DNA from: Argentina anserina
Taxonomy: Eukaryota > Streptophyta > Magnoliopsida > Rosales > Rosaceae
NCBI RefSeq assembly: GCF_933775445.1
Contig: NC_065878.1
Coordinates: 22,456,395 to 22,520,394, forward strand
Direction of reading: 5' to 3'
DNA length: 64,000 nt
The position numbers and the translations under genes are program-made. Shown piece after piece: positions 13,401 to 13,917 of the stretch (its first letter is position 1; each line of letters starts with the position of its first letter). Under the pieces are notes generated by a model, which did not search any database, was not told where the DNA came from, and saw nothing but the letters and a program-made list of their open reading frames with translations.

Positions 13401-13561
13401 GATAAGTCAGGTACATATAGAACATTATGAAGTTCTAAAATAGGAGTGATACGAATTGACCCTCTCCCTAACACGGGAAAAACCTCACCATTGGCATTGG
13501 TAACATAAGACACTGGTGGAGAAGACAACTTAGTATTAAAGTAAGATTTATCATAAGTCAT
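10461..13561 (-). pseudogene. Broken copia pol (protease remainder, integrase, reverse transcriptase, RNase H)
   Basis: Several frames together cover pol. 13561-13169 is the region after the protease active site. 13107-12715 is integrase, with the zinc-binding CETC and the catalytic Asp residues in HSDVWGP and RSDNGGGEY. 12672-11365 completes integrase and enters reverse transcriptase (KWRKAMEEEMEAL, FAPVAKM, FDVKNAFLHGEL). 11509-11237 contains the catalytic YVDDM. 11155-10461 is the connection and RNase H region (SSAEAEYRG, DNKAAI, RTKHVEVD). Frames change near 13560, 13110-13170, 12715, 11510, 11237 and 10760, so at least five lesions prevent one polyprotein. Mobility would need help from an intact relative. 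Confidence 0.93.
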
Positions 13562-13917
13562 ATGACAGATGCACCAGAATCAATAATCCAAGTATCAGAA
13601 CTAATAAAGTTAGAAACGTTTAAAGCCATCTTTCCACATGCTCGAGGTTTTGTAGTGGTAGAGATATTACCATTAGTGCAGAATTGTCCCACAAGATGTC
13701 TAGAATCATGTGAGAACTCAACTCTCCAACCATTCTGACCATTTAATTTTCGAATAGCAATCTCCGCATCACTAATATGAACAAAATCAATGAAAGCATA
13801 TCCCGGTGGTTTCTTTGCAACCCATACTCTTCTAATACTTCCAAACTTACGGAACAAAATCTCAAGCTCCCATTCTGAAAAACGAGAATCAAGATTCCCG
13901 ACATACAAACGAACCAT
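13558..13917 (-). CDS. RSZ21/22-like RRM fused to copia protease start
   Basis: An open frame of 119 codons from an ATG at 13917. Residues 1-73 (13917-13699) are a complete RNA-recognition motif. RNP2 reads LYVGNL, RNP1 lies in KPPGYAFIDF, and the end is NGWRVEFSHD. This pattern is the hallmark of plant RSZ21/RSZ22 (9G8-type) SR splicing factors. About 25 linker residues follow. The frame then reads TWIIDSGAS, the aspartic protease active site of copia pol, and stops a few codons later through a frameshift near 13560. No intron interrupts the RRM. The CCHC knuckle and RS tail of a true RSZ protein are absent, as is a normal copia gag. The likely role is RNA binding in place of nucleocapsid, but that is inference. 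Whether it is translated today is unknown. Confidence 0.82.
   Translation of the reverse strand: MVRLYVGNLDSRFSEWELEILFRKFGSIRRVWVAKKPPGYAFIDFVHISDAEIAIRKLNGQNGWRVEFSHDSRHLVGQFCTNGNISTTTKPRACGKMALNVSNFISSDTWIIDSGASVI

Follow-up and report, generated by a model that had tools for sequence, protein, structure and literature searches.

An RSZ22-type RNA recognition motif in place of gag in a family of copia retrotransposons from Argentina anserina

Can a long terminal repeat (LTR) retrotransposon multiply with an RNA-binding domain of its host where its own gag should be? The question is raised by a copia element on the minus strand of a 64,000-nt stretch of Argentina anserina DNA (NC_065878.1, positions 22,456,395 to 22,520,394 of the forward strand, hereafter the window), in which it is flanked by LTRs at 14577-14750 and 10180-10384. 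According to the original prediction, an RNA recognition motif (RRM) of the SR splicing factor type reads in one frame into the protease active-site stretch TWIIDSGAS, with no gag in view. The first of these statements is confirmed by an open frame at 13558-14034 (-), which encodes 158 aa and runs from the RRM through TWIIDSGAS.

A gag-less family that carries an RRM

Pfam recognizes the domain as RRM_1 (E 7.8e-14, 51.7 bits, cut-off 20.7), and its closest solved structures by sequence are SRSF7 (2hvz, 5.3e-13) and SRSF3 (2i2y, 5.7e-13). A single-sequence AlphaFold2 model (mean pLDDT 71.6) has the RRM order b-a-b-b-a-b, and the majority of the 50 fold matches listed for it are RNA-binding proteins by title. 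Among the features of RSZ-type SR proteins, the N-terminal RRM is present, and the CCHC knuckle and RS domain that would come after it are absent. As for gag, scans of six window pieces against Pfam gave neither a gag nor a CCHC family, and the 336-aa gag of a relative, used as a query, matches neither the window element nor 20 other RRM copies at E 1e-3, although it does match five of six gag-region loci. No gag match is found elsewhere in the window element either, and its final frame stops 76 bp short of the 3′ LTR. Between its LTRs, the element has a primer-binding site and the protease-integrase-reverse transcriptase (RT)-RNase H order of copia elements, and it lacks the copia-type gag with a CCHC knuckle that characterizes autonomous copia elements (Pseudoviridae). 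A non-coding element of the TRIM/LARD kind was rejected, given the coding domains between the LTRs.

When 117 residues of the frame were searched against the species' own genome (236.8 Mb), 126 matches were obtained with 150 of 723 candidates scored, and the family counts are thus lower bounds. Loci were counted from 105 of these matches (in the remaining 21 the alignment begins at or beyond query residue 68, and in 20 of those at or beyond 79), which fall at 84 places. The RRM part is present in 80, three of which are not element loci, two being the host RSZ genes and the third another RRM-like place. This leaves at least 77 RRM element loci, with at least 64 having the RRM and the protease end within 1 kb and at least 48 having both in a single alignment. 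The same RRM-protease junction therefore recurs in several copies in this genome, as a search proposed with the original prediction was meant to establish, and the opposite outcome, an RRM pseudogene confined to one copy, did not occur. A chance origin of the RRM is likewise excluded by the presence of the same domain at so many loci. An artefact, whether a processed RSZ pseudogene beside a single copy or a misassembly, would be favored by the intronless state of the RRM alone, and we regard it as refuted by the separate places of the loci and by the exact target-site duplications that five copies have of their own.

Twenty copies were fetched with their flanks (the 19 matches ranked directly after the window and the 21st, one having been skipped), and six more were taken as short pieces selected for likeness to RSZ22. 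Downstream of the RRM, protease and integrase are found in all 20 fetched copies, RT in 19 (not in L025), and a piece of RNase H in 17 (not in L019, L022, or L025). Codons 1-119 are open in 14 of 21 copies, the window included; among all 27 copies, which comprise 11 young and 16 old ones, five have a stop within codons 1-73 and 18 retain the ATG. Exact 5-bp target-site duplications flank 5 of the 14 LTR pairs scanned (L009, L010, L013, L017, and L026). Divergence within the young LTR pairs is 1.6-9.6% (BLAST mismatches), which, with what we take to be a suitable rate of 1.3e-8 per site per year, would date them to about 0.6-4 million years, although we do not rely on this estimate. A search of viral contigs for relatives of the RRM element confirmed none.

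Origin of the RRM and exchange with gag-bearing relatives

The RRMs of the two host RSZ genes, RSZ22 and RSZ21 (L065, L066), which were located with a probe sequence, align gap-free with the element RRM over 73 codons. Mean amino acid identity to RSZ22 is 65.7% in young and 68.1% in old copies, as against 58.5% and 60.2% to RSZ21, which, together with the Pfam assignment, supports the predicted RSZ origin. Introns interrupt the RRM of either host gene within codons 30 and 60 and are missing from the element copies, so that capture from a spliced RSZ mRNA, another part of the original prediction, is borne out; the copies also lack the CCHC knuckle and the RS domain of the host. The route suggested for the fusion, a template switch between the matching CCHC knuckles of an RSZ mRNA and gag, was not supported. 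The host-derived part stops around codon 73 (SHNSR), ahead of the Gly-rich stretch and CCHC knuckle of the host, the element part restarts downstream of the gag knuckle, and these positions lend no support to a CCHC-guided fusion. Three copies were compared with four gag-bearing relatives and share with them 80-86% identity over 80-85 bp that cover the end of the spacer and the protease motif. The 20 or so codons separating the host part from the element spacer are of uncertain origin, a VVGQ-like match between linker codons and the gag spacer being no more than suggestive. Capture of the leader together with the RRM from the RSZ22 5′ untranslated region was rejected, as the two show no convincing match.

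Among the best 150 of 2485 candidates for an RT query, which were the ones scored, several RT relatives have open frames of more than 1000 aa. Five of six stretches upstream of such RTs match the 336-aa copia gag over 335-336 aa, and the gag of these five relatives has a CCHC knuckle ahead of the same protease spacer. An RT tree of 43 rows, from which L025 (no RT) and seven duplicates were dropped, contains one clade (100/100) made up of 21 RRM elements plus L036, which is the RT belonging to the L062 element, and another (100/100) with 21 relatives, in a minority of which gag was confirmed individually. In this sample, the elements with an RRM for gag are a single clade that stayed with its own pol, and, as they form one clade, they most likely arose, within the sampled copies, by one capture. 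Full-length relatives with gag and without an RRM, which the original prediction had named as evidence against it, do exist, but they form a sister clade and the RRM family therefore stands. The gag of this sister clade scores below the Pfam cut-off for Retrotran_gag_2 (2.9e-5, 24 bits, cut-off 27), and the window element presumably belongs to the Ale lineage.

The LTRs add a different history. The gag-bearing relatives compared first show almost no likeness to RRM elements in LTR or leader. Used as a query, the window LTR gave 41 matches (40 candidates scored) at 23 places, of which 11 belong to RRM elements, three to gag-bearing elements, and two to gag-deleted ones, with seven unassigned. 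The three gag-bearing places (C3:32.81M, C6:14.01M, and C4:1.16M) were picked by eye from 150 gag matches; one such element was checked by sequence for gag (L073), LTR (L076), and RT (L074), and a second for RT only (L075). Young RRM LTRs have a median score of 227 against L076, the LTR of the gag element at C3:32.81M, and of 225 among themselves, compared with 19 (best 37) against old RRM LTRs, where shuffling gives a mean of 19 (maximum 28). These scores cover 11 young and 10 old copies, some of the old 5′ stretches (e.g., L019 and L022) being plainly not LTRs, and the LTRs of old RRM copies differ from those of the young RRM and gag elements. The RTs of the gag elements at C3:32.81M and C6:14.01M nevertheless fall in the gag clade, and the RT of the window is 77.8% and 78.0% identical to L074 and L075, versus 79-88% to those of old RRM copies. 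The LTR and pol of young RRM elements thus have different histories, and the match of young RRM LTRs to gag elements with RTs of the other clade indicates that the two lineages recombined. The usual cause of such LTR exchange is the co-packaging of RNAs. Two pairs of LTRs of the RRM-element kind, about 4.3 kb apart (G000:C5:5208148-5212575 and C7:2510339-2514878) are unmatched among the listed RRM, gag, and gag-deleted matches, and may carry something else or lie outside these lists.

One of the LTR-sharing elements, at C2:27.44M (L078, G000:C2:27439355-27440055), has about 16 gag-start codons fused in frame with the protease spacer, and its protease region is 89-92% identical to gag relatives and 77-79% to RRM elements. 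A 211-bp query over this junction found, among the best 40 of 870 candidates, at least 16 loci that match over the whole or nearly the whole query at 89-100% identity, 15 of 16 being open over 49 codons. In this genome, Pol elements lacking gag have thus spread on two occasions, once with an RRM and once without.

Selection on the RRM and how the family may replicate

To look at selection, the ratio of nonsynonymous to synonymous (N:S) changes was compared between variants seen once (private) and those seen twice or more (shared). Over the 27 copies, the RRM has 75:16 among private and 67:52 among shared variants (Fisher p 5.6e-5), while two wrong frames show no difference (67:19 vs. 89:27, p 0.87; 67:17 vs. 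87:21, p 1.0), and the fall is also seen when the 16 old copies are taken by themselves (p 0.0017). The dN/dS of the RRM is 0.34 between young and old copies and 0.37 among old ones, shared variants have an excess at codon position 3 (59/124 vs. 27/95), the length is constant over 73 codons, and the RNP residues are kept, with Y40 and F42 in 27 of 27 copies and Y5 in 25. These variant counts show that the RRM has been maintained by selection over the longer history of the family, and the dN/dS comparison that accompanied the original prediction comes out the same way outside the young group. The element RRM also has settled changes of its own, as codon 20 is I in all 27 copies versus D in both hosts, codon 46 is V in 25, and codon 47 is H for D in 23. 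Its net charge, taken as raw values, averages -0.7 in old and +5.2 in young copies, compared with -3 in RSZ22 and -1 in RSZ21. Among the 22 RT rows of the RRM clade (L036 and L037 included), variants are 63:42 when shared and 122:45 when private (p 0.03), a weaker fall than in the RRM, whereas the RT of the gag clade is under tight selection in both variant classes (24:36 and 24:40). Passages of PMC9073684 describe a test of the private/shared type on intact elements, in which a fall requires products that favor their own insertion.

From these comparisons, we think it probable that the elements form a gag-less copia family that uses the capsids of its relatives, with a captured RRM that binds the family's own RNA and is kept by selection. 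Within the copies sampled, an RRM that stems from a spliced host mRNA of the RSZ22 type has taken the place of gag, giving the order RRM-protease-integrase-RT-RNase H; copies inserted with target-site duplications, and selection kept the RRM over the longer history of the family. Capsids would most likely be provided in trans by copia relatives that have gag, some of them with nearly identical LTRs, as suggested by the missing gag and the recombination between the lineages. The RRM, N-terminal on Pol, would most likely bind the element's own RNA and, once bound, could couple the enzyme to its template or aid the entry of the RNA into the relative's particle, in part substituting for a nucleocapsid. 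More tentatively, the RRM-Pol fusion might give a cis preference, with the nascent protein holding the RNA that encodes it and taking it into the particles of others.

Several observations weigh against this explanation. The gag-deleted family (at least 16 loci) spreads without an RRM, and the 27 copies used for the RRM test, selected for their similarity at the protein level, are decayed. Among the 11 young copies alone, which have few variants, the trend is the opposite (shared 8:1, private 20:13), and their dN/dS of 0.82 is near neutral. The RT of the RRM clade holds 21 stop variants and is under weak selection compared with that of the gag clade, and some of Pol might therefore be supplied in trans as well. 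LTR sharing could result from gene conversion within the genome. One element with an RRM-clade RT (L062/L036, G000:C4:20.75M) has no RRM or gag match in the 2.8 kb upstream.

Some of these points would be expected if the RRM were an inert host fragment in an element mobilized wholly in trans, in particular the spread of gag-deleted elements without an RRM and, in the young copies, the dN/dS of 0.82 and the 8:1 ratio of shared variants. We consider this quite improbable, however, in view of the frame-specific fall in N:S in the 27 copies and again in the 16 old ones, the excess at codon position 3, the constant 73-codon length, and the RNP residues kept. An RRM directed at the host, which would compete with RSZ22 and change how RNA of the element or the host is spliced or exported, is in keeping with the RSZ22 origin and the retained RNA-binding face. 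SR proteins of the RSZ type use their RS domain and CCHC knuckle, though, and both were left behind in the capture, while several residues and the net charge have shifted away from the host, which makes such a role unlikely.

Replication without a capsid, in which RRM-Pol would keep the RNA as a ribonucleoprotein in the manner of LINE ORF1 and no Gag from any source would be needed, seems to us quite improbable. It could account for the absence of a gag match in the window element and the 20 fetched copies, for the deep branches of the family, and for the selected RRM, and the available part of PMC4120745 describes RRMs in the ORF1 proteins of several LINE clades. Nevertheless, the LTR exchange with gag-bearing elements points to shared particles, and a family that lacks both gag and an RRM spreads as well. 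A lone RRM of 73 aa has, to our knowledge, no assembly domain, which also bears against this possibility.

The window copy and its place among known elements

In the window, the element lies between AAGGC (14751-14755) and AAGTC (10175-10179), a target-site duplication with one mismatch found by sequence scan. The 5′ LTR (14577-14750, minus strand like all parts below, with TG...CT termini) and the 3′ LTR (10180-10384, with a short tandem duplication close to its start) are direct repeats that align as blocks of 97% (133 nt) and 100% (49 nt). The primer-binding site at 14565-14576, TGGTATCAGAGC, is presumably complementary to the initiator-Met tRNA, and the leader (13918-14564), which has no gag match, contains short GACCC-rich stretches resembling those in the leaders of gag-bearing relatives. 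The RSZ22-type RRM, codons 1-73, occupies 13699-13917 by Pfam, structure relatives, alignment, and model, and is followed by the junction and linker (13594-13698), of which the final 40% or so aligns, in the other copies compared, with the spacer between gag and protease in relatives that have gag. TWIIDSGAS (13567-13593) is in the frame of the RRM. The frame is lost right after SGAS, which marks the window copy as a decayed member of the family, and the remaining protease/Pol_BBD (13169-13579) is in a different frame. The integrase core (rve, 12715-13131) and an SH3-like domain with RT (RVT_2, 11365-12714) complete the order of RRM, TWIIDSGAS, Pol_BBD, integrase, SH3-like, and RVT_2. The end of RT and the RNase H region lie in two frames at 10461-11236, where RNase H is assigned by position, Pfam naming none, and by what we take to be its motifs.

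The element sits inside the coding part of an apparent F-box gene (9424-10179 and 14756-15165), with an F-box domain at 9424-9747 (Pfam E 5e-11); the frame at 14756-15165 resumes this gene by eye, without a Pfam match at 0.01. Elsewhere in the window, 47221-49131 and 51706-53589 are two similar copies of one gene, apparently a tandem duplication, whose frames contain VFPDWSFWGW and presumably belong to a glycosyltransferase-like plant family.

Elements that depend on others for Gag have been described. According to parts of PMC3735527, BARE2 of barley cannot make Gag and its RNA occurs in BARE1 particles; like the RRM family, it is a copia element without Gag that has kept pol and shares its genome with a close partner that bears gag, but BARE2 lost the gag start by deletion, whereas the RRM family has a selected host RRM in place of gag. 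The RRM element similarly has no Gag of its own, and, as to cis sequences shared with a partner, young copies have LTRs in common with gag-bearing elements and old copies have other LTRs. Rosaceae Ale copia elements (TGTT/AACA), in the portion available of PMC5659011, resemble the window element in their short LTRs, length of about 5 kb, 4-6-bp target-site duplications, and protease-integrase-RT-RNase H order, and their copia-type gag is matched in the sister clade of the RRM elements. Their coding families carry Gag, however, and "RRM" occurs 0 times in that text. Orchid elements with an AlkB/2-ODD domain are also plant LTR elements with a captured RNA-related domain, but they are Gypsy elements with an extra open reading frame, and the main text of PMC9289625, a supplementary chart aside, has "RRM" 0 times; sections of the same paper, which screened 121 angiosperms, report frequent extra domains only in Gypsy. 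LINE ORF1 proteins share with the RRM family the use of an RRM as a nucleic-acid-binding part, but, in excerpts of PMC4120745, they belong to non-LTR elements and their RRM types come with CCHC, CTD, or PHD. The text seen of PMC11197308, on Rosaceae transposons, has "RRM" 0 times, and abstracts of PMC5408684 and PMC12440569 deal with captured open reading frames and unusual lineages elsewhere. Among the titles and beginnings of abstracts listed by searches of an open-licence library, we found no description of a copia lineage in which a host RNA-binding domain replaces gag, in agreement with the original prediction, which knew of no such family.

The coexistence of gag-bearing, gag-deleted, and RRM-for-gag families in this genome amounts to a natural experiment, in which the functions that require an element's own Gag could be told apart from those it can borrow. 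According to passages of PMC9073684, it is difficult to see how an LTR element could favor its own RNA. Comparing private with shared variants, as done here for the RRM elements, is relevant to cis preference among LTR retrotransposons, and, if the cis preference tentatively proposed here for the RRM-Pol fusion is true, it would be one answer to how such an element favors its own RNA.
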